Positions 4,671 through 26,428 of a DNA stretch of 64,000 nucleotides are shown here, one piece after another. The notes beneath the pieces were generated by a model that was not told the DNA's origin, ran no database searches, and worked only from the letters and a program-made list of their open reading frames with translations. A program made the position numbers and the translations under genes. This stretch comes from Pontibacter akesuensis (lineage in GTDB: Bacteria; Bacteroidota; Bacteroidia; Cytophagales; Hymenobacteraceae), in assembly GCF_001611675.1 (NCBI RefSeq), contig NZ_CP014766.1, positions 744,001 through 808,000 of the forward strand, given 5' to 3'. The stretch's first letter is position 1; each line of letters opens with the position of its first letter.

Positions 4671-5864
4671 TTATAAAGCTCGACTTTCATTTTTAGAAAG
4701 TATGTGTTTTACTACATATGGATGTGAGAGTTCATCAGGTGTCCCAGAAGGTTTTATGTACTTCTCTCTATATTCATTGTAATTAGGAGCAGTATTCAAG
4801 TTTAAGTATGTTACATCAAAGCTTTCCATTTTGATTATTGGCGCATCTAACATACTTGAAACTAGCTTTATTGCATCTATGATTCTCTCTCTTCTAGCAA
4901 ATAATACGCTTTCTATTAATAGAACAGGCTTATTATAGATAGTAGCAAAATTAACTGCTGCACTATAATGAGTTACTACTAGGTAAGAGCTTCTCACCAG
5001 AGCCACGCTTTTACCTATAACAAATTGTTTTCCAGGGAACCTTTGAGCATAATTAGGGTATTTCTCTGATTCAGGATGACCTGCAATAACAACCGTTTTA
5101 TTATATTTCTCTGATATATTATTTAAGAATGTATTCAGGCTTTTGTAGTAGCTCTCTATATTCTCATGCTCTTCCTTTACATCTTTGAAATCTGGATGAT
5201 AAAAGATCATTTGATCCAAGAAAACAATAGCATCCTCTAAAGCTGAATCTACCTGCACTTTTTTATTGATAAGATGGATGTTGTAATCATCAGCATGAGT
5301 TAAGATAACTTTCTCTTTAGGAAAATTATGTGGTATTAATTTCCTATTTGAAACCATCAAATAGTCAGGTTCATAAGCTTTTAGTTTTGTAGCTTTACCA
5401 TATTTTCTAATAATTTTTTGAATTGCATACATGAATAAATTACTAAATGGCTTATAAAGCTTAAAGAATAATACTGTTCCAAAAATAGACGCTAATATAT
5501 TTTGCTGTGTTCCTGTTACTAAGCTAACTTTATTTGTTAGTCGCCCAACCCACACAATATCTTTTCTACTTTTTACTACTTTGAAAAGGATAGGGTAGTA
5601 GTACATTAATCCTAATTGGGAAAAAAGTATTGGCTCATCTTCTAATTCACCAATTTTTGTCTTAAGATGTTTTAGGTTTTGAATGATAGTTAAGTACTGA
5701 GTGGCTTCAGGCGCCACATTTATATCGATATTAGCAACACCAAATAAGCTGCCTAAAAACCAAACTTCTACTTTATGCCCAAGCGCCTCTAACTGCTTAA
5801 TTTGATATGTCTCAATCATACTGTTACGAAGAAGACGCAACTCAAGGAAAACTATTTTGCCCAT
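4671..5864 (-). CDS. unrecognised sugar-cluster protein, possible GT-B-type glycosyltransferase
   Basis: 397 residues, no signal peptide. I do not recognise a named family with certainty. The N-terminus (KIVFLELRLLRNSMIETYQI) could be the first strand of a Rossmann domain. A late segment, LVVTHYSAAVNFATIYNKPV, resembles the conserved S-x-A-x3-A-x2-Y-x-K-P-V-L block of capsule-synthesis and polysialyl/CMP-sugar-using transferases, where it lines the donor pocket. Given its position beside a nonulosonic acid operon and an ABC flippase, a transferase for the CMP-activated sugar is a reasonable hypothesis, not a demonstrated one. It starts about 105 nt downstream of the flippase gene stop. Confidence 0.6.
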   Translation of the reverse strand: MGKIVFLELRLLRNSMIETYQIKQLEALGHKVEVWFLGSLFGVANIDINVAPEATQYLTIIQNLKHLKTKIGELEDEPILFSQLGLMYYYPILFKVVKSRKDIVWVGRLTNKVSLVTGTQQNILASIFGTVLFFKLYKPFSNLFMYAIQKIIRKYGKATKLKAYEPDYLMVSNRKLIPHNFPKEKVILTHADDYNIHLINKKVQVDSALEDAIVFLDQMIFYHPDFKDVKEEHENIESYYKSLNTFLNNISEKYNKTVVIAGHPESEKYPNYAQRFPGKQFVIGKSVALVRSSYLVVTHYSAAVNFATIYNKPVLLIESVLFARRERIIDAIKLVSSMLDAPIIKMESFDVTYLNLNTAPNYNEYREKYIKPSGTPDELSHPYVVKHILSKNESRAL

Positions 5865-5969: not shown

Positions 5970-7769
5970 CTATAAACTATTCATTTCAACAAGGCTATTG
6001 AACTTAGTTGAGGACTGTCTTAGTTCATCAAATGTACCTATACTCTCTACTGTCCCATCTTTAAGATATATAATTTTATCAGCATCCTTAACAGTTGATA
6101 ATCTATGAGCAATTATTATTATCGTATACTTTCCTTTTAGCAAACTAATATTTTCTTGTATACTTTTCTCAGTTTCTGAGTCTAATGCAGAAGTCGCCTC
6201 ATCTAGAAACAGAAAATCCACCTCTTTATATAACTCCCGTGCTATAGATAGCCTCTGCTTTTGTCCTCCGCTTATCATTACTCCGTTATGTCCTAGCGGT
6301 GCATTAAGCTTTTCAGGCTGTTCCATTACAAAATCAAATATTGCTGCCAACTTCAAAGCATTCTCAAATCGGCCAATGTTAGATTCATTTGGTTTATCCC
6401 AAAAAGTTACATTATTAAAAATTGTATCATTAAATATAACTGGCTCCTGAGTAATGTATCCTATTCTTTTCTGAAGAGTAGCCATATTAAGTCCATTTAC
6501 ATCTGTACCGTCAATATGATACATTCCATATTTTACTCTCAGCAAACCGCACAGAATATTCATTAATGTAGTTTTGCCGGAGCCACTTTCCCCTACTATT
6601 GCTACTGTTTCATTCTTTTTGATAATCAATGAAATATTTTTTAACACATGCTCCTGCTTGTAAAAGAAATCTAAATCATTTAGCTCTATTTTATTTTCAA
6701 ATGAACGTAATTCAATACTTCCATTACTCTCCTGATGAGCAGCTAAATCACCCGTGAATTCAGTCATGTTATCCAGAGATCCTGAAACAGACAAGAAAGT
6801 ATTCCAGTGAGTTTGTACTGCCATAAGAAAAGTTAAGGCACGGTAAAAAAAGAGCAAGCTTAAAATAATCAAACCTAAGCTACCTCCTAGAACCTTCATC
6901 TGGATAAGTATAACTGAAACTACAACGAGCATTATAACTGGCTCACGCATAGCAACAAGCACAGCAGCCAAAAATCCAAGCCTTCTTTGAGTCTCTTCTA
7001 TATAGTTTATCGAATTCTTTAGCTTTTCACTGAAGACTCTGACTAAGCCCGATGCTTTCAAATATTTAAAGTTAGCTACTTTTTGAATCAAGAGTCCCTG
7101 AAAAGCATGCGATTCTTTAGTTAAAAGCTTAGACTGAACCTTAGTACTTTTATAGAATCTGTCAAACACTATATTAGTAAGCGCCCCTCCAAACATAACT
7201 AAAAGCGCAAACTGGGCATTTGACATAAAAGCCAACACCATATATACTGCTACCAGCGCTCCATTCTGAAATGCACTAAAATATGATCGGTAAGCTTGCA
7301 TTACCCTCTCAACTTCACCGCTTATTGTGTTCTGAATTCTTCCTGCATCACTGTCAACGAATGAGTTATAACTGTATCCAGAAAGTAAATCAATATTAGA
7401 GAACCTGATTTTCCTAATAAATATCTGTTGTAAGATTACTTTATAGTAACCTTCAAAAAATTTCACCACTCCCTTTAGCGTGAAGAAAGTTAATAGTATT
7501 ACTAAGACAGTCTGTAATGTGAGGAGAATACCTAATGCCTCTAACCCTTCCACTAGAAAAGCCAAATTGCCCATTTGTTCAGGATTAACATTTTCTCCTT
7601 CTCCACCAACCATCTGTAGTAGCGGAATAAACATTGCTAAGCCAAATCCATCTAAGACTCCTACTAAAAGGCTTAACCCTAAAGAAACAAAAATTCTATA
7701 GCCTAAATGCTTATGGAAGTAAGTGAAGCTACCGAAGTACTTTTGTATTATTATTTTCAACTTGTTCAC
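5970..7769 (-). CDS. ABC transporter, fused permease-ATPase (PglK/MsbA-type flippase)
   Basis: A 599-residue half transporter. The N-terminal six-helix membrane domain spans about residues 25-330; the ATPase follows with Walker A GESGSGKTT (393-401), Q-loop Gln441, signature ISGGQ (499-503), Walker B FLFLDE (519-524) and H-loop AHRLSTV (554-560). Such proteins act as homodimers that flip lipid-linked oligosaccharides, as PglK does in Campylobacter and MsbA for lipid A. Its place in a glycan gene cluster supports oligosaccharide flipping across the inner membrane. The start codon appears to be GTG at 7769. No wzx/wzy pair is seen in the window, so this is the obvious exporter candidate. Confidence 0.88.
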   Translation of the reverse strand: MNKLKIIIQKYFGSFTYFHKHLGYRIFVSLGLSLLVGVLDGFGLAMFIPLLQMVGGEGENVNPEQMGNLAFLVEGLEALGILLTLQTVLVILLTFFTLKGVVKFFEGYYKVILQQIFIRKIRFSNIDLLSGYSYNSFVDSDAGRIQNTISGEVERVMQAYRSYFSAFQNGALVAVYMVLAFMSNAQFALLVMFGGALTNIVFDRFYKSTKVQSKLLTKESHAFQGLLIQKVANFKYLKASGLVRVFSEKLKNSINYIEETQRRLGFLAAVLVAMREPVIMLVVVSVILIQMKVLGGSLGLIILSLLFFYRALTFLMAVQTHWNTFLSVSGSLDNMTEFTGDLAAHQESNGSIELRSFENKIELNDLDFFYKQEHVLKNISLIIKKNETVAIVGESGSGKTTLMNILCGLLRVKYGMYHIDGTDVNGLNMATLQKRIGYITQEPVIFNDTIFNNVTFWDKPNESNIGRFENALKLAAIFDFVMEQPEKLNAPLGHNGVMISGGQKQRLSIARELYKEVDFLFLDEATSALDSETEKSIQENISLLKGKYTIIIIAHRLSTVKDADKIIYLKDGTVESIGTFDELRQSSTKFNSLVEMNSL

Positions 7770-7972
7770 GCGCTACTTTAAAATCACCTGAGTACATCTA
7801 TTAAACCTTATAATGGTACAGTTATCATCAAAAATACTATAAACTGTACCCTCTCACTGCCTGATAATGTTGGAATTATGAAATTACCAAATTCTTAATA
7901 ACCATGTGTCAACATATAGCTATTGTTCTGTATCTACCTAATTATAACTTTAAATTTAAACCTATAACCACA

Positions 7973-8665
7973 TCATACATTAGAAATATAAACTATATTA
8001 GAATATATATATTCAAATACATTTTTATTCCCTTCTGCATTCAAATGGTATCCATCCTTTAGGAAAAGATTATTCTCACCTGATTGTAAAGGATCAATCA
8101 AGGAAATAAATTCATATTCATTTTTAAGTCTTTCAAAAACCGAATTGTAGATCTTGACCTGCTCAGTTATTCTAGGATTCTTAATTATCATGTTTTGGCT
8201 AGGCTGAGCTATCTTGATGACAAATACTCCACCTACTTTCAGTGTAGCACATCTATCAAAATAATTACGCAGGTTTGCTTCAAATTTGGCAGGCGATACA
8301 TCTGCATGTATAGCTTTTCTTCTACCATATTTACTAATTAAAATCCATATCTTAGAAGATAAGGATTTTGGGAACACATTTATGGCTCTAACAAATATTG
8401 AATCCCTCTTTAAAAACCGGGGAGCACAGTCTACAATGCCTATTTGAAGTATGACTATGTTAGGAGTATATAGTTCTAAGTAGTCACCTCTGGTAGGGCT
8501 CACTAGCGCATCTGTGTTTATGCCCCTGACAAATTGCGGGATAACGAAAAAATCAGGAAAAGATTCCACTAGCTTATAGTACCAGGTGTCTTCAAATTTC
8601 ACGTCATCTCGTGGCAGACCAAGAGAATCCCCAACACATAAAATTCTATTTTTACTCAGTTCCAA
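7973..8665 (-). CDS. SGNH/GDSL-family hydrolase or sugar O-acyl transferase
   Basis: 230 residues with block I GDSLG (12-16, nucleophile Ser14) and block V DGYHLNAEG, supplying catalytic Asp and His about 25 residues from the C-terminus. The block III Gly/Asn region (about VILQIGIVD) is present but weak. No signal peptide is seen. Members cut or transfer ester-linked acyl groups; in polysaccharide clusters they remove or add O-acetyls. The start is a TTG at 8665, 7 nt after the stop of the upstream gene, because stops block every earlier in-frame start. Last gene of the tight minus-strand operon that begins at legB. Confidence 0.75.
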   Translation of the reverse strand: MELSKNRILCVGDSLGLPRDDVKFEDTWYYKLVESFPDFFVIPQFVRGINTDALVSPTRGDYLELYTPNIVILQIGIVDCAPRFLKRDSIFVRAINVFPKSLSSKIWILISKYGRRKAIHADVSPAKFEANLRNYFDRCATLKVGGVFVIKIAQPSQNMIIKNPRITEQVKIYNSVFERLKNEYEFISLIDPLQSGENNLFLKDGYHLNAEGNKNVFEYIYSNIVYISNV

Positions 8666-8672
8666 ACTATAG

Positions 8673-9614
8673 TTATTTTAACATTGTACTGTAAATACTT
8701 TTTGAATTATGAACGTGCTCCTGATAAGATACTAATCTTGATGTATCGTTTTTCACAAAAGCTGTTACCTGCTTATATACTCCAGGCTTATATTTTTTAT
8801 CGATAGTATCATCAAATTCATAAGCCTCAACAGAAATACTCCCCAACGCTTGTATATTAAGCCCCTCTAAAGGTTTAAGGTAAATTCTTCTTTTGCGTGT
8901 CAGCAGCTCTAGTGACCACCTACCTGCGCTTTCCCAATTGGCTGCATAGGAGAATAGCACCCCTTTTTCAGTTATTCCTGCTCCAACAAAGTTAGATGGA
9001 GAATGCCACGAGATGTTACCTGCCTGCGCGTAAGCTTGCCATTGCTCAGGTTTGCCTGCCAGAAAGAACGCCAGGTCAACTACATGAGTAGAGTTTGCAA
9101 AGAACCAATTCTCTTTCACACCAGCAGCTTTCTCAAGTGGTTCAATCCGGTGAGCCCATTCCGTAAACTCAAACTGCATGCTCATAAGCCCTCCATCTTC
9201 CTCTATAAGCTTTTCTGCTTCCAACACCGATGTATAGTACCTCCTATTGTATGCTATGTAAATTTCACTAGCATAACTTTTAATTTCTTCTTCGTGCGCT
9301 ATCAACTCTTCAATACTTATTGCTGCGGGTTTTTCCACCAATATTTTACGAACTCCCGCATTTAACAAGAGCAATAGTGTCTTCATTAAAGACTCTGTAC
9401 CTGTCGCGATTATAGCCTGCGTATTAGGAGCAACATTCCCTTCTGCAATGTACATCTCTATACCGCCAGTTACAGGAGAGACTCCTGTTGCTTGCTCAAA
9501 CTTCTCTGCAGAACTCTGCCCCCTGCCAACTACACTGAAGGTTACTTTCATATCCTGCAATACTTCGGCATAGGCTACGGCCATAGGACCTGTCCCAATT
9601 ATTAGTGTTTCCAT
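8673..9614 (-). CDS. Gfo/Idh/MocA-family oxidoreductase
   Basis: 313 residues. The N-terminal Rossmann fold has the nucleotide loop GTGPMAVAYAE (7-17), then LVEKPAAI, the E-K-P motif whose Lys is catalytic in the Gfo/Idh/MocA family. The C-terminal domain carries YNRRYY and HVVDLAFFL (substrate-side His and Asp). Enzymes of this family oxidise or reduce sugar hydroxyls with NAD(P). Neither it nor its neighbour is part of the minimal nonulosonic acid pathway, so it may alter a side carbon or make an acyl precursor. 22 nt separate it from the second Gfo/Idh gene upstream. Confidence 0.83.
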   Translation of the reverse strand: METLIIGTGPMAVAYAEVLQDMKVTFSVVGRGQSSAEKFEQATGVSPVTGGIEMYIAEGNVAPNTQAIIATGTESLMKTLLLLLNAGVRKILVEKPAAISIEELIAHEEEIKSYASEIYIAYNRRYYTSVLEAEKLIEEDGGLMSMQFEFTEWAHRIEPLEKAAGVKENWFFANSTHVVDLAFFLAGKPEQWQAYAQAGNISWHSPSNFVGAGITEKGVLFSYAANWESAGRWSLELLTRKRRIYLKPLEGLNIQALGSISVEAYEFDDTIDKKYKPGVYKQVTAFVKNDTSRLVSYQEHVHNSKSIYSTMLK

Positions 9615-9636
9615 ATTGGTAATCGGTGTTTTGTGA

Positions 9637-10605
9637 TTAGGTAATTGGGCACGTGTCTGTAAGCTGCCCCGACAATTGCTGATACTTTTCTAGTAATACT
9701 TCAAGGTATGGAACATGCGCTTGATACGCCTCTTCGTATGTAGGTAAGTCACAAGTTCCTTTTTTGAAAAGTTGTTCTGCCAGCCTTGTTGTAAGAGTGC
9801 TTTGATATTCTACTGTATATTCTGAAACCACTGCTTTGTTTTCATGATTGAAGCTCACTACCTCGTTGCCTGCTCCCTCAGTAACAATCCATCTATATTT
9901 ATCTGCTGAGATACTGGTGGTTAATATACCTGGAGTTCCCCTATCAGAAGTGATTGTAAATAAGCTCCCATTCTCTAGAGTGCCCTTGATGGTTCCAACA
10001 AATTCAATGTGCCCAGATCGTTTACTATCTAAAACTTCGTTCTCTACCCACACCGCATCCAGTGTATCCACCGATGAACCGGATAAGTATGAGACTAGGT
10101 CAATAAAATGTATTCCATTACAGGCTAAACCCCAGTTCATGCCATAGGTATGAAGGGTTATACTAGTACCTACACTCTGTATCTCTTGTTTGATTTGCTG
10201 AAAGTGCCTCATCATTCTTCTTGGATGATTCACCCAAGTGGCGACTCCCTTGTCTAACAGCATTGCTCTAACCTCATCATAGGATTTCTGTTTTTGAAAC
10301 AGCACCTTTTCCAAGATTAAAAATTTAACAGCATGATCTTCAAGTAGCTTTGTTACTACACTTTCTCTAACACCTGCATTTGTAGCAATGATCGCTATAT
10401 CTATATTGTTAGGCAGCTTATCCCAGTTAGATACAAAATATACCTTGTGCATATGTTCAACCTCTCCAGACCGTTGCTGTGCTATTCTCAATGACTCCAC
10501 TGATGGGTCAATCACAAATATATTTTGGGGTTTGTTGTACTTTAAAAGCCCTTGCAGATGCCTGCTACCAAGTTGTCCTGCACCAACTATTAGATTGTTT
10601 TTCAT
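9637..10605 (-). CDS. Gfo/Idh/MocA-family oxidoreductase (second copy)
   Basis: 322 residues. The dinucleotide loop GAGQLGSRHLQGL lies at about 8-20 and ILEKVLFQ at about 97-104 replaces the canonical E-K-P with E-K-V. The C-terminal half contains NHPRRMMRHFQ and GIHFIDLVSYLSG, the His/Asp pair typical of the substrate domain. It is distinct in sequence from the neighbouring Gfo/Idh protein, so this is not a recent duplication. It follows the CMP-sugar synthetase gene by 1 nt and is therefore almost surely co-transcribed and translationally coupled with it. The altered E-K-V motif is worth noting but the catalytic Lys is kept. Confidence 0.8.
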   Translation of the reverse strand: MKNNLIVGAGQLGSRHLQGLLKYNKPQNIFVIDPSVESLRIAQQRSGEVEHMHKVYFVSNWDKLPNNIDIAIIATNAGVRESVVTKLLEDHAVKFLILEKVLFQKQKSYDEVRAMLLDKGVATWVNHPRRMMRHFQQIKQEIQSVGTSITLHTYGMNWGLACNGIHFIDLVSYLSGSSVDTLDAVWVENEVLDSKRSGHIEFVGTIKGTLENGSLFTITSDRGTPGILTTSISADKYRWIVTEGAGNEVVSFNHENKAVVSEYTVEYQSTLTTRLAEQLFKKGTCDLPTYEEAYQAHVPYLEVLLEKYQQLSGQLTDTCPIT

Positions 10606-10606
10606 A

Positions 10607-11287
10607 TTATTTGAGATCCTTAATGAGTAGCTCTGCTAGGTTAAAATCTACCAGATCATCGATGTCAACAGAAGAAGCTTTATTCATTAAATATTTTTGT
10701 TTCTTTAGTCCTGATAGCCCTACTTCTTTAAATTTTGAGACTTTTATAATATAGATCGCTCCGTTCAGCTCATATACCGTTGGACAGTCTTGTCTTCTCG
10801 TGAATTTTCCCTCTTTTGAACTCTCGAGATAACCATCAACCCCTTCCTCAAATAGAACATAATATGGGTTTGCATCTGTTTCTTTAACCGAAACTATTAT
10901 TTCTGTTGTATCATTTATCAAGCCCATTGCTTCTTTGAGATGGCTTGCAGTCCTAAGAGGTGAGGTTGGCTGTAGCAGGACTATATAATCGTACACATTA
11001 CCCAAACTTTCATAAAAAGCAAGGGCATGCATCAGGACCTGCTCAGAAGTTGCGCTATCTGTGCTTAACTCTGGAGGCCTGATAAAAGGCACTGACAATC
11101 CGTACGCACGAACTACTTCTGCTATTTGTAGATCATCTGTAGAAACACATATATTTAAATCTTCACTTACTCCTCTTGCTGCATCTACAGTGTATAAAAT
11201 GAGAGGTTTCTCGTTGAGAAGCTTAATATTTTTACCTGGCAACCCTTTAGATCCTCCTCTTGCAGGTATTAGGTACAAAATTTTCAT
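10607..11287 (-). CDS. legF: CMP-nonulosonic acid synthetase (acylneuraminate cytidylyltransferase)
   Basis: 226 residues of the NeuA/LegF/PseF family. The CTP-binding loop PARGGSKGLPGKN is at 8-20, followed by LLQPTSPLR (about 105-113) and the C-terminal VDIDDLVDF stretch with metal-binding acidic residues. It activates a free nonulosonic acid with CTP to give the CMP-sugar donor. The surrounding LegB/LegC/LegG/LegI set points to legionaminic acid rather than neuraminic or pseudaminic acid, hence the symbol. Immediately downstream of the CBS-nucleotidyltransferase gene with no gap (11288/11287). Confidence 0.88.
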   Translation of the reverse strand: MKILYLIPARGGSKGLPGKNIKLLNEKPLILYTVDAARGVSEDLNICVSTDDLQIAEVVRAYGLSVPFIRPPELSTDSATSEQVLMHALAFYESLGNVYDYIVLLQPTSPLRTASHLKEAMGLINDTTEIIVSVKETDANPYYVLFEEGVDGYLESSKEGKFTRRQDCPTVYELNGAIYIIKVSKFKEVGLSGLKKQKYLMNKASSVDIDDLVDFNLAELLIKDLK

Positions 11288-12334
11288 CTAGAATTTTATA
11301 TGGTGTATGTCTTCCTGAGCTTTTTGGAAATCTTCAGGCTTGCCAATATCTAACCAGTACCCTCTCAATGGATAGGAGTTTACCTTCATGCCCTTCTTAA
11401 TCAACAGCTCCATTAAATCAGTCGTATTATAGAAGCTATCTCTAGGGATATACTCAAGAACTTCTTTCTTAAGTAGGTATATCCCACCATTTGAGTAATA
11501 TGTATAGGAAGGTTTCTCCTTAAAACTCTTGATGTTGTTATCTTCCGTTTCTAATACTGCGTAGGGCACTTTTACTGTATAAGGAATAGTGACTACAGAA
11601 ATAGCTGCATCTTTTTTAATGAAGTCAATAAAAAAGTCTTCATAATCAAGGTTGGTAAGCAGATCAGAGTTGGAAACCAAAATATAGTCATGTTGAAGAT
11701 CCTTAATTTTGCTAACAGCACCTAGAGTACCAAGTGGCGCATCTTCCCAAACGTATTTTATATTTATATACTTAGAGCTGCCATCAGCAAAGTATTCCTC
11801 CAGTTGTTCCCCTAAGTATCTCACAGATATCCATATATCGTCAATACCGAAGCTAACTAACCGGTCTATATTATGCTCTATGATGGGTTTATCTCCAATC
11901 TTAAGCAAAGGTTTAGGTGTCGTATCTGTATGAGGGCGTAACCGTTCTCCTCTTCCTCCCGCCATTAAGATAGCATCAATGGGCAGGTAGGATTTTAAAA
12001 ATCTAAAGTTTATAATATTAGCTATCCTTCCTTCCTTGCAAAGGACTGGTATTATTTTATAATTATTTTTACGATAGGTTATAACTTCATCAATCGTATA
12101 GTTGCCTCGCTGTACAAACTTAGGGTTCGGCTGCGTAAAGCTGTCAACTAAGTCTTCTAATGTCAACCCCTTCAAGAAGCCGCGGCGTATATCTCCGTCA
12201 GTTAAGGAGCCAAGTAGTCTTTCCTTCTCATCCACAACAAAAAGTATTGCATCGAGTGCCAGCTCATTTAACTGAACTAAAGCCTCTTTTAAAGTCGACT
12301 GGCTCTTTATGATATGCTTTCGGTAATCGATCAT
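11288..12334 (-). CDS. ptmE: CBS-domain nucleotidyltransferase (PtmE-like, glucosamine-1-phosphate guanylyltransferase)
   Basis: 348 residues. Two CBS domains fill about 1-115 (ILFVVDEKERLLGSLTDGDI is typical), followed by a sugar-nucleotidyltransferase domain with MAGGRGERLRPHT (123-135) and TPKPLLKIGD. This architecture is that of Campylobacter PtmE, which makes GDP-glucosamine at the head of the GDP-linked legionaminic acid route; relatives in other clusters make other NDP-sugars. Co-occurrence with legB, legC, legG and legI supports the PtmE assignment and a GDP-linked pathway. 2 nt after the PIG-L deacetylase gene. Nucleotide preference cannot be read from the sequence. Confidence 0.82.
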   Translation of the reverse strand: MIDYRKHIIKSQSTLKEALVQLNELALDAILFVVDEKERLLGSLTDGDIRRGFLKGLTLEDLVDSFTQPNPKFVQRGNYTIDEVITYRKNNYKIIPVLCKEGRIANIINFRFLKSYLPIDAILMAGGRGERLRPHTDTTPKPLLKIGDKPIIEHNIDRLVSFGIDDIWISVRYLGEQLEEYFADGSSKYINIKYVWEDAPLGTLGAVSKIKDLQHDYILVSNSDLLTNLDYEDFFIDFIKKDAAISVVTIPYTVKVPYAVLETEDNNIKSFKEKPSYTYYSNGGIYLLKKEVLEYIPRDSFYNTTDLMELLIKKGMKVNSYPLRGYWLDIGKPEDFQKAQEDIHHIKF

Positions 12335-12336
12335 GC

Positions 12337-13005
12337 TTATTTATCAATGTATTTTATTAGCTGGAAAGCCTCCGCATAATGCACTCCAACACTAGCCCCT
12401 CTAAAATGAGCCAGTGCTTTTATATTTTCTAATGATCGAGGAAAAGGGTGCTCGCCTAGCTCTGACTCATAAATCTTCATAATCTCAAGCTTCTGCTCCA
12501 AGTGCTCTGAAATATCTATGAAGTAGTTTGGCAAGAATGCTTTTTCTGGAAGCACTGGAGCAAACTCTGTCTCAGAGATACATTCATACATAAGCACACG
12601 CTTAATAAATGGATAACGGAATGATTTAGTGCAGGCCATCACAGCATCAAAAATAACTCTATGATCAGAGTGCGCGTCAGACCTGTTCAAAGAGTAGATG
12701 ATTTCAGGCTTAACCTCTTGGAAAATAGCGGATATTTCAGGTACCATTTTAATCAAGCTAGAGCTTGACAGCGTCATTGTAGGGTAATCGAGTTTGAATG
12801 TCTGCTTGACACCTAGCAGGTCTGCAACCCTTACAATTTCTTCCTGCCTTGTTCTAACCCTACTCTCCGAAAAACCATCCTTTTCGAATATATTGGTAAC
12901 GATCAACCAATATATTTCATCCCCATTTTTCTTATGCTTGAGTAAAGCACCGCCTACACCAAGAACTTCATCATCCGGATGAGCAGAAATAACTATTACT
13001 CTCAT
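12337..13005 (-). CDS. PIG-L/LmbE family deacetylase
   Basis: 222 residues with the zinc motif SAHPDDEVLG (7-16: His, Asp, Asp, Glu) and the distal RSDAHSDHRVI carrying the third metal His. The family removes N-acetyl groups from GlcNAc-type sugars (PIG-L, MshB, BshB). No signal peptide, so cytoplasmic. It is locked in the operon, 1 nt from legG upstream and 2 nt from ptmE downstream. Not needed for plain di-N-acetyl legionaminic acid, so it may free an amino group for a different acyl group, perhaps added by the nearby GNAT enzyme. That pairing is inference. Confidence 0.87.
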   Translation of the reverse strand: MRVIVISAHPDDEVLGVGGALLKHKKNGDEIYWLIVTNIFEKDGFSESRVRTRQEEIVRVADLLGVKQTFKLDYPTMTLSSSSLIKMVPEISAIFQEVKPEIIYSLNRSDAHSDHRVIFDAVMACTKSFRYPFIKRVLMYECISETEFAPVLPEKAFLPNYFIDISEHLEQKLEIMKIYESELGEHPFPRSLENIKALAHFRGASVGVHYAEAFQLIKYIDK

Positions 13006-13006
13006 T

Positions 13007-14176
13007 TTAGTAAGTTATATTTTTATAAATTAATGTGTCATTCACTTCAAGTTCTGCTAATATCTTAACGATCTTTTCTGAAGCATTACCGTCTCCATAT
13101 GGGTTGTACTTGGTGGCTACACCTGCAAGAAACTCATCATCAGTAAGCACTTTGTCTATAGCTCTTGATATTTCACTTTCTTCATTATTCACAAAAATAA
13201 CATTACTTCCGCATGCTCTACCACGTTGTCTACTTCCTATGTTTATTGCTGGTAAACCCAAAGACGGTGCCTCAAGCAAGCCTGAACTAGAATTGCCTAA
13301 AAGGCAAGTAGCATGCCTTAACAGGTTTACATAAGTAATTCTGTCCAAATTTTGAAAAAGCATAAACTGCTCAGGATACTTAGCTGAATAATCTTTATAA
13401 GCTTCAACAATTGCGTAGTTTCCAGGATCAGAATTTGGATAATTAATAAAGCACTTAACTCCTGATTTTTGTATTGCTATTAGCGTTTCTTGTATGTGCT
13501 TTTCTTGGTCCTCTACTTCTGTAATAATTGAATGTTGGATAAGCACAAAATAGGCCTCATCGACAACATTAAAATCTAGTCGCTTACTTAGCTCTTCTTT
13601 AGAGACGTAAGGAGTATTTACAAATCTATCTAAGGCAGGATTTCCTACAACATTAATCCTCCACTCATCCTCACCCAATCTAATCAGATTCTCTTTATGA
13701 GCCTCAAGTGATGGAAAATGTAAATGTGCAAACTTGCTTGCTGCATATCTTACAGAATTATCAATATTGCCATCTTTGGCAATATCTCCTCCAAAGAAAT
13801 GTGCAACTGCTATATTTAGAAAGGCTGCGGTCATCGTGACAGAAATAGCTTCTTCTCTATCACCTGCAACTAAAATAATATCTGGCTTTACCCTGAGAAA
13901 AGTTTGCGCTAGAGCAGGAATTTGATACCCAATTGAGGAAATTCTTCCAACTTTACTATTTGTGTCTAGTAAGTTGAAGATATAATCTTCAATCTTGAAC
14001 CCATCATTTTCAACATAGCGGGCAGTATATCCGAAGTTATCAGATAAATGAGGTCCGGTTACGACAATACTAAAGTCAAATCGATTATCGTTTGCTAGCT
14101 TCTCATAAACAGAAACTAATAAATCATATTCAGATCGAGCACCAGTGACAGCTAATACCTTTTTCCTACGTTCCAT
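13007..14176 (-). CDS. legG: hydrolysing NDP-sugar 2-epimerase (NeuC/LegG family)
   Basis: 389 residues of the UDP-GlcNAc 2-epimerase fold: KKVLAVTGARSEYDLL at the N-terminus, VAGDREEA at about 101-108, AHFFGGD, and the C-terminal GNSSSGLLEAPSLGLPAIN, which holds the nucleotide-binding Ser/Glu residues. NeuC/LegG releases the nucleotide while inverting C2, giving 2,4-diacetamido-2,4,6-trideoxymannose as substrate for LegI. The neighbouring LegB and LegC predict a 4-amino-6-deoxy substrate, favouring LegG over NeuC. Sits between the GNAT gene (2 nt) and the PIG-L gene (1 nt). Confidence 0.88.
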   Translation of the reverse strand: MERRKKVLAVTGARSEYDLLVSVYEKLANDNRFDFSIVVTGPHLSDNFGYTARYVENDGFKIEDYIFNLLDTNSKVGRISSIGYQIPALAQTFLRVKPDIILVAGDREEAISVTMTAAFLNIAVAHFFGGDIAKDGNIDNSVRYAASKFAHLHFPSLEAHKENLIRLGEDEWRINVVGNPALDRFVNTPYVSKEELSKRLDFNVVDEAYFVLIQHSIITEVEDQEKHIQETLIAIQKSGVKCFINYPNSDPGNYAIVEAYKDYSAKYPEQFMLFQNLDRITYVNLLRHATCLLGNSSSGLLEAPSLGLPAINIGSRQRGRACGSNVIFVNNEESEISRAIDKVLTDDEFLAGVATKYNPYGDGNASEKIVKILAELEVNDTLIYKNITY

Positions 14177-14178
14177 TT

Positions 14179-15144
14179 TTAATATATATCTGAATCCCCC
14201 ATAGAAAATTGCCAGTTATGGATCGTTTCAAAATGCTTTTCTTTCGACTCTAAGCTTCTAATTCCAAAGTATGTAATAGGTTTTTCCATAGTAAAGCCTA
14301 ATTTCTCAGCCATAATATACTTAGGGTCATTTTGAGACAGCCAAAGATTAACTGAAGTAATCATTGTTGTATTCTTAGCTTCATAGTAGCTAAGAACTTT
14401 AGATACTAAACTTCTTATTAGTTCTACATCAGTAGGCACACAGAGTTCAACAATGTCAATTTCAGTAACTTTATCTAAGCTAGTGGAGGTTAAAAAAGTT
14501 TTTGCTACAGCATAGTACCTTTCATCTTCAACATCAACTTCGAAAATTATATATTTATTGGATGGATTGTTAACGTACCTCCACTCTAAATATTCTTTTG
14601 TCCTATTTACTGATACTACGTCTTTCCTCAGATTGGACAAAAAACTACTGTAGTGTGAAGTAGTAAAATTTTCTATTACTTCTATATTTTCATCACTTCC
14701 TCTCCTAAAACTTTCTACTTCAAGTTTCAATGTTGGTATAGCAGCAAGATCTTTCCATTTTAAATTTTTTATGAATCCATAATGAGAGTTCCTATTAGGA
14801 AAACCCCATACAGCAGTCACATTAAATTTCTCCTGTATTGTCTTATAAAGGCTTTCTGCTAAAGTTGTAAATATACCTCTTCCCGCATAGTCTGGATGTG
14901 TCATGGTTGTCATAGAGAGTGAAGTCAAGCTTACATCTCCATTCACAATAAGCTCTACAGGGGAAACCGCATAATGTCCAGCAAGCGTTTCACCATCCCA
15001 CATGAGCTTAATCATAGGTTTGCTAACAGGATTATTCAAAAACCGCCACCTCCAGTATTCGACTGACATCTCCTGATTAAAGGCGAGTTTGAATAATTCC
15101 AGAATTTTAGGCTCATCACCTATTTTGTAATCAGTAACTTCCAT
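14179..15144 (-). CDS. GNAT-family N-acyltransferase
   Basis: 321 residues. The N-terminal half has GNAT features: EYWRWRFLNNP, a pattern common in sugar-cluster acyltransferases, and MTHPDYAGRGIFTTLAESL at about residues 82-100, which includes the acyl-CoA-binding G-R-G loop. A second W-R-Y-V-N-N-P segment in the middle (about 190) suggests a two-lobed, possibly duplicated GNAT. It is inserted between the synthase and epimerase genes with 3 and 2 nt gaps, so it belongs to the pathway. Either it acylates the sugar amino group with a group other than acetyl, or it provides the 5-N-acyl group on GDP-GlcN at the pathway start. Confidence 0.8.
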   Translation of the reverse strand: MEVTDYKIGDEPKILELFKLAFNQEMSVEYWRWRFLNNPVSKPMIKLMWDGETLAGHYAVSPVELIVNGDVSLTSLSMTTMTHPDYAGRGIFTTLAESLYKTIQEKFNVTAVWGFPNRNSHYGFIKNLKWKDLAAIPTLKLEVESFRRGSDENIEVIENFTTSHYSSFLSNLRKDVVSVNRTKEYLEWRYVNNPSNKYIIFEVDVEDERYYAVAKTFLTSTSLDKVTEIDIVELCVPTDVELIRSLVSKVLSYYEAKNTTMITSVNLWLSQNDPKYIMAEKLGFTMEKPITYFGIRSLESKEKHFETIHNWQFSMGDSDIY

Positions 15145-15147
15145 AGC

Positions 15148-16176
15148 TTATTGTATATGTGACCAATCAAGTATTTCTCCCGCTTGTAATGGTTTGACAA
15201 CTTTTCTACCTACTACTCTCGGAATATACATTGAAGAAATTCCACTACCAGGCCTTTTCACTTCTAAGTCAGACAAACCAATTTCATCGCCTACTTCTAA
15301 GTTGACCTTAACATGTAAACTTTTCCTTGCCAAATCCTTATTCTTCAACTCCGAAGATGTGGGCTCTTTCCTTCCATCACCATTAATAGCTTTTTCAATA
15401 TTTCTAATTGCTGACACCATCGCCTTCAACTCATCCGGTTCAAGTGACGCTTTGTGATCTGGACCTGGAAGATCTCTATCAAGAGTAAAATGTTTTTCTA
15501 TAACTTTTGCACCCAAAGCTACGGCCGCAACTGGTACTTCAATTCCCAAAGTATGGTCAGAATATCCGATATTAACTTTGAAGGCTTGCTGTATTGTTAG
15601 CATCGCATTTAAATTAACATCTTCATACTTTGTAGGATAGTCTGTGTTACAGTGCAAGACGGTGACCTTATCTAGATCTACTCCTTCCCCTTTTAGAACA
15701 CTTAAGGCCTCCTCTATTTCACCTAAAGTTGCCATACCTGTTGATATAACTATAGGTTTGCGCTTTCGGGCAATGTGCTGGAGGTAAGGGAAATTTGTTA
15801 TTTCACCAGAAGGTATTTTATAAAGATCTATTCCAAGTTGTTCCAAGAAATCTATGCTATCTTCATCAAAACCGGTTGATAAAAATTTAACTCCTTTTTG
15901 TTTTGCATATTTCAGCAACTCAACATGCATACTTTCTGTTAACTCCAGCTTTTTTAGCATGTTATACTGAGAATTCTCAATGCTATTACCACCTAGATTC
16001 TTCAATTGGTAATCAGCCTGCTTCGCTTCTTTGCTTACAAGTTTATCAGCCTTAAAAGTCTGAAACTTCACGTAGTCAACCCCAGCGTCAGCAGCAACAT
16101 CAATAAGTTGTTTGGCTAACTGAATATCACCATTGTGATTTACACCAGCTTCGGCTATTATTACTGTTTTATTCAT
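15148..16176 (-). CDS. legI: nonulosonic acid synthase (NeuB/LegI family)
   Basis: 342 residues. The NeuB TIM-barrel occupies about 1-270, with AEAGVNHNGDIQLAKQL at the N-terminus, KFQTFKADKL, LYKIPSGEITNFPYL, STGMATLGEIE, HCNTDYPT and GYSDHTLG. It ends in an SAF (antifreeze-like) domain from about 280 with GSGISSMYIPRVVGRKV. The enzyme condenses phosphoenolpyruvate with a six-carbon amino sugar to the nine-carbon acid. The overlap of 4 nt with the upstream acetyltransferase gene indicates translational coupling. Family members act on ManNAc, 2,4-diNAc-6-deoxymannose or the altrose isomer; the LegB/LegC context picks the second. Confidence 0.92.
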   Translation of the reverse strand: MNKTVIIAEAGVNHNGDIQLAKQLIDVAADAGVDYVKFQTFKADKLVSKEAKQADYQLKNLGGNSIENSQYNMLKKLELTESMHVELLKYAKQKGVKFLSTGFDEDSIDFLEQLGIDLYKIPSGEITNFPYLQHIARKRKPIVISTGMATLGEIEEALSVLKGEGVDLDKVTVLHCNTDYPTKYEDVNLNAMLTIQQAFKVNIGYSDHTLGIEVPVAAVALGAKVIEKHFTLDRDLPGPDHKASLEPDELKAMVSAIRNIEKAINGDGRKEPTSSELKNKDLARKSLHVKVNLEVGDEIGLSDLEVKRPGSGISSMYIPRVVGRKVVKPLQAGEILDWSHIQ

Positions 16177-16802
16177 TTTTTCAACTCTACGGCAGGATTC
16201 CCTACCAAAATTAAATTATCTGGCACATCTTTCACCACCACTGCACCAGCTCCGATTATAACATTTTTCCCGATAGATGTCCCTTGTTTTACCACAGCAT
16301 TTGCTCCTATAAAACTTCCTTCGCCAACACTTACATTACCAGCCAGCACGGCGCCAGGGGCAATATGTGCATAATCCCCAACTAAGCATTCATGCTCAAC
16401 AACTGCACTTGTATTTATTATAGCCCCCATACCTATACTTGCCATTGGGTTAACTATTGCTCCTCCGGAGATAAAACTTCCATTGCCTACAGTAGAAAGC
16501 TTTGAAACTGATGCAGTAGGATGAATGACTGATATGCTGTGCATTCCCTGCTCAGTAAGATGTTTTGTAAGATTTCTCCGAGCGGAGTTGTTCCCTATAC
16601 TCACAATAAAGCTTGCTTCTAAAGCGGCGAGTTTAGATAAAGTTGTTGCCTCCTGCTCATCTCCCAGATATACCAGATTGAAAGGGTTACATTTAGCCTC
16701 TACTTTGTCACAATATCCAACTATTTCGCCTCCCAGCATTTTTACAGTGTCTGCAATAACAAACGCATGACCAGAGTATCCGATGAGAACTATCCGCTGC
16801 AT
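16173..16802 (-). CDS. legH: NeuD/PglD-type sugar acetyltransferase (LegH candidate)
   Basis: 209 residues. An N-terminal Rossmann-like domain (VLIGYSGHAFVIADTV, substrate binding) is followed by a left-handed beta-helix with ASIGMGAIINTSAVVEHECL, AHIAPGAVLAGNVSVG and the closing VLVGNPAVELKK-like end. The His in VEHECL is the catalytic base position in PglD, which N-acetylates the C4 amine of UDP-4-amino-sugars. Placement 2 nt after the LegC aminotransferase matches the dehydratase-aminotransferase-acetyltransferase order of bacillosamine and legionaminic acid pathways. Confidence 0.87.
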   Translation of the reverse strand: MQRIVLIGYSGHAFVIADTVKMLGGEIVGYCDKVEAKCNPFNLVYLGDEQEATTLSKLAALEASFIVSIGNNSARRNLTKHLTEQGMHSISVIHPTASVSKLSTVGNGSFISGGAIVNPMASIGMGAIINTSAVVEHECLVGDYAHIAPGAVLAGNVSVGEGSFIGANAVVKQGTSIGKNVIIGAGAVVVKDVPDNLILVGNPAVELKK

Positions 16803-16804
16803 TG

Positions 16805-17962
16805 CTATAATCTAACGCTACTCGGAATATTTACTAACCGCTCTTCGATCCACGTACTCACACTTACATCGCCATGCAAATTATCCTGGAACATTGGCAG
16901 TTTGTGCATCAGAGTCCATGCAGGGCGCACCATAACGCCATTGCTGTTTGCCTCGGTTAAGAAAGCGTCTCTTGCTTCCTTACTTTCTAATAAAAGCACA
17001 TTCAGCCAATAGTTTGCTTTTGCATCTGACTCCTCTGTCACAAATTCCACTCCCTCAACTCCTTCAAAGAAGAGCTTATACTTGGTAGCCAATTCCCGCT
17101 TATTTTCTAAAAAAGCACCTAGTTGCTCAAGTTGAGCACAGGCTAGTGCGGCATTCAGGTTTGGCATGCGATAATTATAACCTATATGGTCGTGGTTAAA
17201 CTCCCATGCATGAGGAACCTTCGCTTGTGTTGTCAGGTGCTTTGCAAGCTTAGCTATAGCTTCGTTATTTGTTACCAGTGCACCTCCACCGCCACAGGTA
17301 ACAGTTTTATTGCCGTTAAAGCTAAACGTTCCGACTAAACCAGTGGTACCAGTATGTTTGGTTTTATGATAGCTACCCAAGGATTCAGCAGCATCTTCGA
17401 CGAGTGGAATATGCCACTCATCACATATTGCGGCTATTTTGTCTATATCACACGGAAAGCCAAAGCTGTGCATGGGCACGCAAGCAGCTATTCGTTTTCC
17501 CGTCTTCCTGTTGAAGGTAGCATTATTTTCCTTTCGCCCATTTTCCTGCAAGAAAGCTTCTAAACTAGCGGCAGATAGCCCTAAGTTATTTCTATCGATA
17601 TCTAGGAATACAGGTGAAGCTCCTAAGTAGCTAATAGCGTTGGCCGTAGCAATAAAGGTTAAGTCTTGTGAGATAACTTCATCTCCTTGGGTGACACCTG
17701 CAACGATTAGAGCCATGTGCAAGGCTGCTGTTCCGTTGACAGTTGCCACAGCATACTTTGCCCCGGTTATTTTCTGCATCATCTCCTCAAAGCGATTAAC
17801 ATATGCCCCTACTGAAGACACGAATGTTGAATCGATTGCATCAACAACATACTTTCTTTCATTCCCGACAAAGCGCGGCTCATGTAGGGGAATAAAATTT
17901 TGCCCAGGAAACAGCTCCTTGATATAGCTGATTATATTACTGTACTTACTTGATGACGTCAT
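16805..17962 (-). CDS. legC: LegC-type PLP aminotransferase (DegT/DnrJ/EryC1 family)
   Basis: 385 residues. IPLHEPRFVGNERKYVVDAI, VATVNGTAALHMAL (cofactor phosphate-binding), MHSFGFPCDID and VEDAAESLGS are typical of the family. The Schiff-base lysine is in FSFNGNKTVTCGGGG, where the N-G-N-K form is characteristic of LegC rather than of the S-x-H-x-x-K of most DegT enzymes. It transfers an amino group to the 4-keto-6-deoxy sugar made by LegB. Starts with ATG at 17962, 14 nt after legB ends. Confidence 0.9.
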   Translation of the reverse strand: MTSSSKYSNIISYIKELFPGQNFIPLHEPRFVGNERKYVVDAIDSTFVSSVGAYVNRFEEMMQKITGAKYAVATVNGTAALHMALIVAGVTQGDEVISQDLTFIATANAISYLGASPVFLDIDRNNLGLSAASLEAFLQENGRKENNATFNRKTGKRIAACVPMHSFGFPCDIDKIAAICDEWHIPLVEDAAESLGSYHKTKHTGTTGLVGTFSFNGNKTVTCGGGGALVTNNEAIAKLAKHLTTQAKVPHAWEFNHDHIGYNYRMPNLNAALACAQLEQLGAFLENKRELATKYKLFFEGVEGVEFVTEESDAKANYWLNVLLLESKEARDAFLTEANSNGVMVRPAWTLMHKLPMFQDNLHGDVSVSTWIEERLVNIPSSVRL

Positions 17963-17976
17963 AGTAATACTACAGT

Positions 17977-18975
17977 TTATATATTATAGATGTCTGCTTT
18001 GTACTGACGCAAGTTTTCCTTATTACGGAACCACTCAATCGTTTCGGCAAGACCTTCTTCCAAGGTATACTTCAAGCTCCAGTTCGTATTGCTCTTAATT
18101 TTAGCATTGGCGCCATACAAGCGGAATACTTCACTTTTTTCAGGTCTAAGGCGCACTTCATCCTGAATTATTCTAGCTTGTGGATTGATTTGATTGATCA
18201 GGCTCTGTGCTAAATCTCCAACAGAGATTTCAGACTCAGTTGCAATATTACAATCCTCGCCAATCAAGCTATCTGATTTCGCTATTTCAACAAATCCATT
18301 GGCTGTATCTTTCACAAACAGAAGATCACGTGTAGGCGTAAGATCGCCAAGTTTGATCTCTGTCTTTCCTTGTAACAACTGCGTGATGATAGTAGGAATT
18401 ACCGCTCTAGCCGACTGACGCGGCCCATAAGTGTTGAACGGCCTTACAATAGTTAGAGGCAGGTTGAAACTCCTGTAAAAGGAATCGGCAATACAGTCTG
18501 CTCCGATCTTAGAGGCTGAGTACGGTGATTGAGGCTGCCTAGGGTGCTTCTCGTCGATTGGAATATATTGTGCAGTACCGTAGACCTCTGAGGTAGATGT
18601 TACCAGAACTCGTTCTACGCCCAGATCTTTGGCTGCCTGAACAATGTTTAGTGTACCTTTCACATTGGTGTCAATGTAGCTGTCTGGTGAGTGATAGCTA
18701 AAAGGAATGGCAATCAAAGCGGCCAGGTGGAAAACAACCTCTATGTCTTTCATTGCTGTACGAACCCCATTAGGATCACGTACATCTCCAGCAAAAATTT
18801 CAATTTGGGATAGTTTCTCCTTAGGAAGTGAATCAAGCCAGCCCCAGCTATTGAATGAATTGTAATAGACAAATGCTCTTACACTACAGCCTTCCTCTAA
18901 TAATCGCTCTACTAAGTGGCTTCCAATAAAACCGTCTGCTCCCGTAACCAAAACTTTTTTATTGCTTATTTCCAT
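17977..18975 (-). CDS. legB: LegB NDP-N-acetylglucosamine 4,6-dehydratase
   Basis: 332 residues of the extended SDR family. The NAD loop VTGADGFIGSHL is at about 10-21, the S-T-S catalytic segment in VTSTSEVYGTAQY, and the Y-x3-K pair in YSASKIGAD. FVYYNSFNSWGWLD and PYSYHSPDSY-like blocks are diagnostic of LegB-type enzymes, which in Campylobacter use GDP-GlcNAc. First gene of the operon; about 135 nt upstream is a TACCTTTG promoter box. It makes the 4-keto-6-deoxy intermediate and so commits flux to the pathway. Confidence 0.92.
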   Translation of the reverse strand: MEISNKKVLVTGADGFIGSHLVERLLEEGCSVRAFVYYNSFNSWGWLDSLPKEKLSQIEIFAGDVRDPNGVRTAMKDIEVVFHLAALIAIPFSYHSPDSYIDTNVKGTLNIVQAAKDLGVERVLVTSTSEVYGTAQYIPIDEKHPRQPQSPYSASKIGADCIADSFYRSFNLPLTIVRPFNTYGPRQSARAVIPTIITQLLQGKTEIKLGDLTPTRDLLFVKDTANGFVEIAKSDSLIGEDCNIATESEISVGDLAQSLINQINPQARIIQDEVRLRPEKSEVFRLYGANAKIKSNTNWSLKYTLEEGLAETIEWFRNKENLRQYKADIYNI

Positions 18976-25981: not shown

Positions 25982-26428
25982 CTATACTTTGCTTATCCTC
26001 ACCGTTCTCTCCACGCCGTCCTCTCCTACTTCCAGCTCCAACAAAAGGTAATGTTCAGGCAGCAGGTTTGGGATCATTGAGGGCCATTCGATCAGGCATA
26101 GCTTACCAGATTCTAAATACTCGAGCACGCCAATGTCGAGCGCCTCGCGTTCTTCCTGTATCCTATAAAAATCGAAATGGTAAATAAGTTTCCCGGCGGC
26201 GCCTTCGTACTCGTTTACAAGGGCAAAGGTAGGGCTGCTGACGTTCTCCTGCACGCCCAACTGCCGGCAAAGTTCTTTGATTAGCGTTGTTTTTCCAGCG
26301 CCCATCTGCCCTTCAAACAATATGACAGGTGCTGTGACAGCCTCCCTTAGAAGCACAGAAGCCGCCGCTGGCAAATCTTCCAACGACGACATCTTGATTT
26401 GTGCTCGTTCAACTCCTGTGCTATACAT
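25982..26428 (-). CDS. tsaE: tRNA threonylcarbamoyladenosine biosynthesis ATPase TsaE
   Basis: 148 residues. P-loop FEGQMGAGKTTLIKEL is at about 38-53, followed by SSPTFALVNEYEG and HFDFYRI, both characteristic of TsaE, and LIEWPSMIPNLLPE near the C-terminus. TsaE is the ATPase that resets the TsaB-TsaD complex making t6A37 in tRNAs. The ATG at 26428 overlaps the porX stop by 8 nt; a second Met at residue 13 (26392) is the alternative start and gives the more usual N-terminus (SSLEDLPAAA). The porX-tsaE pairing suggests one transcript. Confidence 0.9.
   Translation of the reverse strand: MYSTGVERAQIKMSSLEDLPAAASVLLREAVTAPVILFEGQMGAGKTTLIKELCRQLGVQENVSSPTFALVNEYEGAAGKLIYHFDFYRIQEEREALDIGVLEYLESGKLCLIEWPSMIPNLLPEHYLLLELEVGEDGVERTVRISKV

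Follow-up and report, generated by a model that had tools for sequence, protein, structure and literature searches.

The DNA analysed here, called the window below, is a 64,000-nucleotide (nt) stretch of Pontibacter akesuensis (NZ_CP014766.1, positions 744,001 to 808,000), in which twelve open frames on the minus strand (7973-18975) make up a legionaminic acid (Leg) operon of the guanosine diphosphate (GDP)-linked type. On balance, we favour the view that this operon makes a cytidine monophosphate (CMP)-activated Leg whose N-5 group has been swapped. What is observed directly is the gene content, the gene order, the domains, the near-exclusion of acylating partners from one another, the co-variation of the epimerase LegG with the partner, and the blocks by which the operon differs from those of its relatives. 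It is best regarded as a genuine legionaminic operon with a new assortment of genes, in which the known pathway is joined to a widespread exchangeable N-acyl module and to a rarer redox/O-acyl module.

Gene content and organization of the operon

Seven of the twelve frames belong to the GDP-linked Leg set. Indeed, LegB, LegC, LegH, LegG, LegI and LegF are encoded together, as judged from their domains, and a PtmE-type nucleotidyltransferase (CBS and NTP_transferase domains) is present in the same operon. The five extra genes (PIG-L, GNAT, GfoB, GfoA and SGNH) fall into two modules, namely PIG-L plus GNAT, and GfoB-GfoA-SGNH. Along the window from left to right, the minus-strand genes are SGNH, GfoA, GfoB, LegF, PtmE, PIG-L, LegG, GNAT, LegI, LegH, LegC and LegB, with distances between neighbours of 7, 22, 1, 0, 2, 1, 2, 3, -4 (an overlap), 2 and 14 nt. 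The initial annotation, made from the sequence of the window alone, had described twelve tight minus-strand genes with gaps of 22 nt or less; the frames and their distances (-4 to 22 nt) bear this out, and its domain assignments agree with those listed below, where percentages are protein identities to the counterpart in locus L013 of the same genus unless stated otherwise.

17977-18975, minus strand: LegB, 4,6-dehydratase encoded at the start of the operon (PF16363; 96%, and 92% to L014)
16805-17962, minus strand: LegC, pyridoxal phosphate-dependent aminotransferase of the DegT type (PF01041; 93%)
16173-16802, minus strand: LegH, NeuD-type N-acetyltransferase (TIGR03570, above cut-off; 91%)
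15148-16176, minus strand: LegI, NeuB-type synthase (TIGR03569, above cut-off; 64%)
14179-15144, minus strand: tandem-GNAT N-acyltransferase, the predicted acyl-swap partner (PF13527; model with a predicted local distance difference test score, pLDDT, of 91)
13007-14176, minus strand: LegG-2, hydrolysing 2-epimerase of the NeuC type (TIGR03568; 34%), of a clade mostly with non-formyl partners according to the tree and the approximately unbiased (AU) test
12337-13005, minus strand: PIG-L/LmbE-type de-N-acetylase (PF02585; 95%)
11288-12334, minus strand: PtmE-type protein with CBS and nucleotidyltransferase domains (PF00571 and PF00483; 84%)
10607-11287, minus strand: LegF, CMP-Leg synthetase with a CMP-sugar transferase domain (PF02348; 72%)
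9637-10605, minus strand: GfoB, Gfo/Idh oxidoreductase, first in the inserted module (PF01408; model pLDDT 89.6)
8673-9614, minus strand: GfoA, Gfo/Idh oxidoreductase, partner of GfoB (PF01408)
7973-8665, minus strand: SGNH/GDSL-type acylhydrolase or O-acyltransferase (PF13472, 27.2 bits, under the cut-off of 32.9)

The operon resembles the Campylobacter pathway for GDP-linked CMP-Leg synthesis in having LegB, LegC, LegH, LegG, LegI and LegF together with the CBS-nucleotidyltransferase PtmE, here in one operon. It differs from it by the addition of PIG-L, a tandem GNAT, a divergent LegG, GfoB-GfoA and SGNH, and by the absence of PtmA-like and true PtmF-like frames from positions 1-30000 of the window. 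Both profiles were seeded from loci L033 and L037, where the names PtmF and PtmA rest on domain, size and position as described in PMC4481668. In this region, the PtmA profile had no match, and the PtmF profile picked up nothing beyond the general fold, with 23 bits for GfoB and 12 bits for GfoA.

Comparison with relatives of the same genus and family

In a lineage set of 99 genomes, P. akesuensis included, nine PIG-L matches were found at E<=1e-15 in eight genomes, all nine within clusters containing a NeuB-family gene. Four relatives, three of the same genus (L013, L014 and L015) and one of the same family (L016), have most of the Leg core in matching order, and the operon arrangement is therefore more than chance. 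The domains and the presence of PtmE support the earlier assignment to a GDP-type Leg operon. The order in the relatives is LegB-LegC-(LegH)-LegI-LegG-X-PIG-L-PtmE-LegF, with two deviations: L014 is without LegH, and L015 begins with a gene that resembles LegB at just 24%. Position X holds a two-domain formyltransferase, identified by Pfam in the three relatives examined and through similarity in L014, and neither the GNAT, the Gfo/Idh pair nor SGNH was found in the 18-19 kb stretches of these four relatives.

At the DNA level, homology between the window and L013 covers positions 10621-12999 and 15443-18963. Homology to L013 is lacking in two places: between 12999 and 15443, where LegG, GNAT and the final third of LegI lie, and at 7770-10620, the site of GfoB-GfoA-SGNH. 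Furthermore, the window LegG shares 64% identity with a Taibaiella LegG versus 34% with the Pontibacter LegG of L013. The formyl-type Leg operons (L013-L016 and L048) are thus close to that of the window in almost the same gene order and in PIG-L (74-95% identity), but they encode a formyltransferase and an ordinary LegG where the window has GNAT and LegG-2 as well as the GfoB-GfoA-SGNH insertion. The simplest account of these comparisons would involve two events: replacement of LegG and formyltransferase by GNAT and LegG-2, and insertion of GfoB-GfoA-SGNH. The view of the initial annotation that PIG-L and GNAT are the likely makers of a non-acetyl N-acyl group is supported. Its list of five extra tailoring genes needs a correction, in that these are not five unrelated additions: PIG-L is common to the four relatives, GNAT lies at the site of their formyltransferase, and GfoB-GfoA-SGNH is a separate insertion that recurs elsewhere with Leg genes.

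Four PIG-L family genes are encoded in the P. akesuensis genome. No Leg- or pseudaminic acid (Pse)-type gene is labelled in the 18-kb stretches around the other three, and no PIG-L was found in the 19 kb around the second NeuB gene of this genome, which also has a third, weaker NeuB match.

PIG-L and its acylating partners

The metal motif of the window PIG-L is intact, HPDDE and DAHSDH being invariant across six sequences. Named genomes were scanned with this six-sequence alignment, and the best 80 of at least 433 confirmed matches were used as loci; one of them, L047 (Pontibacter diazotrophicus), repeats G045, the same genome as L015, and several contigs are short. Of these 80 loci, 54 have LegI within 10.5 kb of PIG-L, 50 have LegG within 3.5 kb, and 63 encode at least one acylating partner within 3.5 kb, counting the short formyltransferase. 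In the 50 LegG-adjacent loci, the partners are a formyltransferase (24 loci), WbqC (10), a tandem GNAT (7), an ATP-grasp protein (3), WbqC with ATP-grasp (1) or none (5). Exactly one of the four classes is hence present in 44 loci, and a single locus has two or more, against 10.6 expected, a value as low being reached in none of 20000 column shuffles. Pfam searches on the members examined identified WbqC (PF08889), methyltransferase neighbours, and ATP-grasp with a HAD neighbour. The tandem-GNAT class occurs near LegG and PIG-L in L032, L049, L050, L051, L054, L078, L096 and L118. In the window, the intact PIG-L motif is accompanied by a LegG of the second clade described below and by GNAT as the only partner class within 3.5 kb, adjoining LegG, which is the make-up expected of an N-acyl-swap cassette.

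We think it very unlikely that the GNAT merely carries out a housekeeping acetylation of GDP-glucosamine or glucosamine-1-phosphate that supplies GDP-N-acetylglucosamine (GDP-GlcNAc), with PIG-L in salvage or proofreading and plain 5,7-di-N-acetyl-Leg (Leg5Ac7Ac) as product. The Campylobacter pathway does require an N-acetyltransferase between its two segments, according to the part of PMC4481668 consulted, but the place of GNAT is held by a formyltransferase rather than an acetyltransferase in the four relatives, and a deacetylase next to an acetylase would be futile. The near mutual exclusion of WbqC, ATP-grasp, GNAT and formyltransferase and the variation of LegG with the partner also argue against such a housekeeping role.

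On plasmids, PIG-L was found in 149 records; three of the five examined are Leg or Pse-like clusters (L032, L042 and L044) and two are not (L043 and L046). A plasmid of Sinorhizobium mexicanum encodes PIG-L, LegG, GNAT, LegH and LegI adjacent to one another, with GfoB-GfoA-LegB-LegC-PtmE beside them, which is nearly the gene set of the window in another phylum, and this is the only plasmid record with GNAT. Within 198 Bacteroidota genomes, the GNAT gave matches only in the P. akesuensis genome and two weak ones at 27-30% (L039 and L040), whose stretches contain no PIG-L.

Some further observations were made on these families. Just left of the window, the neighbouring gene cluster encodes another member of this GNAT family, 22-26% identical (L038, G000:C1:740863-741447). 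In Roseivirga pacifica (L052), a LegG 58% identical to that of the window has PIG-L beside it and no recognised partner, and this locus may conceal a fifth class of partner. ATP-grasp genes are found near LegG in L042, L064 and L074 (with PIG-L) and in L191, with a HAD-type neighbour detected by Pfam in L042 and L064 and by profile in L191, and they may serve to attach an amino acid to the sugar. In clusters that are pseudaminic-like by gene content, from genomes of the same order and a cyanobacterial plasmid, PIG-L lies close to a NeuB-family gene (L017, L018, L020 and L044), together with a short formyltransferase in L017 and L020 (PF21553) and L044 (as annotated), and with a hexapeptide protein instead in L018 (G019:C1:1836000-1855000). 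An equivalent acyl swap may exist for Pse.

Co-variation of LegG with the acylating partner

Changes of partner class were counted on quick trees of 38 loci having LegG, PIG-L, LegI and PtmE, with 200 shuffles. The loci without partner (L052, L071, L102, L105 and L122), the double locus L074 and L047 were left out of the trees, and L101, which has a very long branch, was also dropped from the enlarged LegG tree and the AU tests. The LegG tree requires 5 changes (shuffles: mean 15.6, minimum 12), whereas the values for PIG-L (13), LegI (15) and PtmE (16) are inside their own shuffle ranges (minimum 12 each). Counts made without shuffles gave 19, 14, 15 and 16 changes for LegC, LegB, LegF and LegH on 42, 35, 38 and 36 loci, with 8, 8, 6 and 7 for LegG on the respective locus sets. 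According to their printed names, the members of the LegG tree represent 14 phyla, although many are metagenome bins and single placements may be wrong.

The LegG tree was enlarged with 38 LegGs without adjacent PIG-L and 4 with PIG-L, sampled independently of PIG-L (no more than the 30 best loci of each search, mostly with 1.5 kb on each side). A second LegG clade (Shimodaira-Hasegawa-like approximate likelihood ratio test, SH-aLRT, 99) comprises 23 rows, including 9 of the 9 WbqC, 8 of the 10 GNAT and 4 of the 4 ATP-grasp rows, plus 2 labelled as without PIG-L; the remaining 68 rows are 30 formyl, 36 without PIG-L and 2 GNAT. Regarding the two rows so labelled, L192 has a PIG-L about 2.4 kb beyond LegG, and in L191, with ATP-grasp and HAD, no PIG-L was found. 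The 50 loci selected for PIG-L had suggested that LegG tracks all four partner classes; this was weakened, ordinary LegGs without PIG-L sharing the formyl-type clade.

The window LegG groups with three Bacteroidota GNAT-type LegGs (support 99). In AU tests on 34 rows, in which 12 of the 27 formyl rows were hand-picked, constraining it to the formyl-type LegGs of its own family was rejected (p-AU 1.2e-6). By the same approach, placement of the window PIG-L with its own family was not rejected (p-AU 0.39) and placement with the GNAT group was (0.021).

Proposed exchange of the N-5 acyl group

The substrates, the order of the steps, the position and identity of the acyl group, and the redox and O-acyl roles given here are proposed from the sequences. 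By analogy with the known pathway, the product of PtmE would be a GDP-sugar, and PtmE would thus supply a GDP-linked GlcNAc-type sugar, which LegB, LegC and LegH would convert into a GDP-2,4-diacetamido-trideoxy sugar, LegH setting the 4-N group (the future N-7). PIG-L would then strip one N-acetyl group, most likely the GlcNAc-derived group at C-2, which corresponds to N-5 of Leg and could not be varied through LegH, and the tandem GNAT would add a different acyl group from acyl-coenzyme A (acyl-CoA) at the freed amine. LegG-2, an epimerase version accepting the new acyl group, would release the altered sugar, which LegI would condense with phosphoenolpyruvate and LegF would convert into the CMP sugar. 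Further editing by GfoB-GfoA and SGNH would follow, probably oxidation and re-reduction of a hydroxyl carbon and addition or removal of an O-acyl group.

Double-GNAT enzymes of the Eis and N-myristoyltransferase kind use acyl-CoA. The model of the window GNAT is a tandem GNAT and, among solved structures, comes closest to N-myristoyltransferases and Eis-type acetyltransferases (TM-score 0.57-0.69), which suggests acyl-CoA as its donor. As regards the position, N-7 can be set by LegH and the N-5 acetyl group arrives with GlcNAc (pathway in a figure legend of PMC6137143), so that a deacetylase is needed only for N-5. LegG would be the first enzyme to meet the new acyl group at C-2, and for this reason would follow the partner, while LegB, LegC and LegH, which act before the swap, and PIG-L, which meets the acetyl group, would not.

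A swap that is real but takes place elsewhere, either at the C-4 amine (N-7) or, downstream of LegI, on Leg in its free or CMP-activated form, seems improbable to us, though less so than a housekeeping role of GNAT. N-7 also varies in known Leg and Pse sugars according to the parts of PMC9676051 and PMC6388019 consulted, and the pseudaminic-like clusters L017, L020 and L044 combine PIG-L and a short formyltransferase close to a NeuB-family gene. N-7, however, can be changed through LegH alone, without a deacetylase, and LegH is retained in the window; moreover, the co-varying enzyme is LegG, a step upstream of LegI, and the only formyl-Leg paper found describes the 5-N-formyl form (PMC6137143).

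This 5-N-formyl-Leg was reported for the haloarchaeon Halorubrum sp. PV6, where HrrPV6_1050, adjoining LegG by its number, 'possibly encodes the N-formyltransferase' (text available from PMC6137143). The Halorubrum locus, as far as described there, resembles the window in its Leg pathway, in a possible acyl-changing transferase by LegG and in an N-5-altered product, and differs in having a formyltransferase where the window has GNAT. In addition, a Halorussus plasmid is annotated with neuC, PIG-L and neuB beside two formyltransferases, its PIG-L being 34% identical to that of the window. Leg5GluNMe7Ac of Clostridium flagella (PMC13317340) shows that a large group other than acetyl is possible on N-5 of Leg, a likeness to the proposed WbqC and ATP-grasp classes by product only. 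No cassette of a deacetylase and an acyl partner for legionaminic or pseudaminic acid was described in the open-access titles and abstract beginnings searched, a scope outside which subscription journals fall.

Several points weigh against an exchange at N-5 by this cassette. Neither partner, LegI nor LegG is nearby in 9 of the 80 PIG-L loci, PIG-L relatives at about 35-37% occur outside such clusters (L043 and L046), and the GNAT family is also found in stretches without PIG-L (L038, L039 and L040). The co-variation opposes ordinary and formyl LegGs to the other classes rather than defining four cognate LegGs, since the second clade mixes GNAT, WbqC and ATP-grasp; L054 and L096 are GNAT loci with an ordinary LegG, and in L192, in the second clade, PIG-L is accompanied nearby by a formyltransferase-like frame scoring 122 bits, the GNAT there being weak at 45 bits. 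The formyl-type LegG is itself unspecific: among 17 LegGs from Bacteroidota that share at least 52% identity with it, only 3 have both a formyltransferase and PIG-L within 1.5 kb. LegG and the partner adjoin and may have moved jointly by linkage, although PIG-L, also a neighbour, does not follow. The replaced DNA takes in the last third of LegI, and LegI does not co-vary with the partner though it would meet the altered sugar; a tolerant active site is the only explanation we can offer. Lastly, the words 'PIG-L', 'LmbE' and 'deacetyl' do not occur in the main text of PMC6137143 as accessed, and the Halorussus record is one picked from 258 matches and does not come from the strain with the analysed sugar.

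The GfoB-GfoA-SGNH module

This second module is the weakest part of the interpretation. In GfoB, E98-K99 and H165xxD168 are invariant in five sequences, and in GfoA the EKP, NRR and NSxHxxD motifs are invariant in ten, residues which we take to be of the catalytic kind. SGNH has an Asp12-Ser13 pair (GDS-type serine) and a C-terminal His206 invariant in six sequences, so that its assignment agrees with that of the initial annotation in spite of the score under the Pfam cut-off; on reading its sequence, no hydrophobic N-terminus was seen. The fold matches of the GfoB model are general Gfo/Idh proteins, sequence searches of the PDB with GfoB and GfoA gave nothing useful, and GfoA had no match in PHROGs. 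An assignment of GfoA and GfoB to PtmF and PtmA was rejected: L031, L033 and L037 hold all four, with a PtmF-like protein of another Gfo/Idh domain make-up and a PtmA-like short-chain dehydrogenase.

The GfoB-GfoA pair is present in the window and in 14 further loci (L031-L037, L045, L050, L053, L066, L085, L093 and L194), with a 16-nt gene overlap in 9 of the 14 according to our own start calls. Leg genes share the stretch in all of them except L034-L036. L050, L053, L066, L085 and L093 had been chosen for PIG-L (5 of the 80 loci) and L194 for LegG. In samples not chosen for PIG-L, the pair is inside or next to Leg genes in P. akesuensis and in 2 of the 5 other genomes of the order, and a Leg context was found on plasmids for 2 of 2 GfoB and 3 of 3 GfoA matches, although neuB and neuC of the Mesorhizobium plasmid lie no closer than about 9 kb. 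The order GfoB-GfoA-SGNH is that of the window in L031, L053 and L085, and SGNH precedes GfoB in L050.

Two oxidoreductases are thus encoded with Leg genes, as looked for in an epimerase pair for nonulosonic acids, and oxidation followed by reduction of one carbon fits two coupled oxidoreductases. GfoB-GfoA would therefore probably act by oxidation and then re-reduction of one carbon (epimerisation), and SGNH probably in O-acyl tailoring. The initial annotation had proposed an oxidised side carbon, which is possible, but epimerisation is no worse a fit. An oxidoreductase pair of other families makes 8-epipseudaminic acid, the 8-epimer of a related sugar (PMC12053666). The Acinetobacter 8-epimerising enzymes (EpaA-EpaB, ElaABC and AciE) share with the window pair that they are oxidoreductases altering a nonulosonic acid, but EpaA is a cytidylyltransferase/aldo-keto reductase fusion and EpaB and AciE are of the short-chain dehydrogenase type (same source), whereas GfoB and GfoA are Gfo/Idh proteins, a separation based on family descriptions.

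The three genes could also act on another sugar of this surface glycan, their place in the operon being due to chance insertion, a doubtful reading, though the least doubtful of the alternatives considered here. In its favour, the module is missing from the stretches of the four relatives, and in L034-L036, which come from three genomes of a single genus, no Leg genes lie within about 9 kb of GfoB-GfoA, a NeuB being encoded elsewhere in the genome; this also tells against a role in Leg editing. Such a role is favoured by the Leg context in the samples not chosen for PIG-L, by the order repeated in three loci, and by the presence of NeuB in all five of the other order genomes with GfoB.

Neighbouring genes and other features of the window

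Two genes downstream of the operon have relatives near the clusters of other genomes:

5970-7769, minus strand: ABC exporter/flippase-like protein (PF00005), with relatives at 77% (L013) and 66% (L015) identity located directly after LegF
4671-5864, minus strand: protein of 397 amino acids, related genes being found close to the clusters of L013 and L015

The 397-amino-acid protein has neither a Pfam nor a PHROG match and is a candidate CMP-Leg glycosyltransferase (nonulosonic acid transferase) by inference only. A Bacteroidota-type promoter pattern gave one match in the window, away from the operon start and not above chance. Elsewhere, a fusion of a response regulator and a PglZ domain (26421-27983) and an erythromycin esterase family protein (36207-37481; PF05139, 402.8 bits) are encoded.

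Significance of the proposed exchangeable N-acyl module

The evidence tips, by a little, towards a Leg pathway with an interchangeable 'acyl socket' across a dozen or more phyla. PIG-L would free the amine of the GDP-linked intermediate, which would be refilled by a formyltransferase, a tandem GNAT, WbqC (often with a methyltransferase) or an ATP-grasp ligase (often with a HAD phosphatase), a second LegG lineage would accept the larger groups, and the block replacement in Pontibacter would be a re-plugging of this socket. In the literature found, as far as it was accessible, no route to non-acetyl N-5 groups on legionaminic acid is explained, whereas at N-7 a change of LegH is enough. Deacetylation followed by reacylation could account for 5-N-formyl-Leg and make the kind of N-5 group predictable from four gene classes. 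If the socket is true, new N-5 acyl and aminoacyl legionaminic acids would be predictable from sequence, and the swap set would provide natural enzymes for nonulosonic acid analogues.

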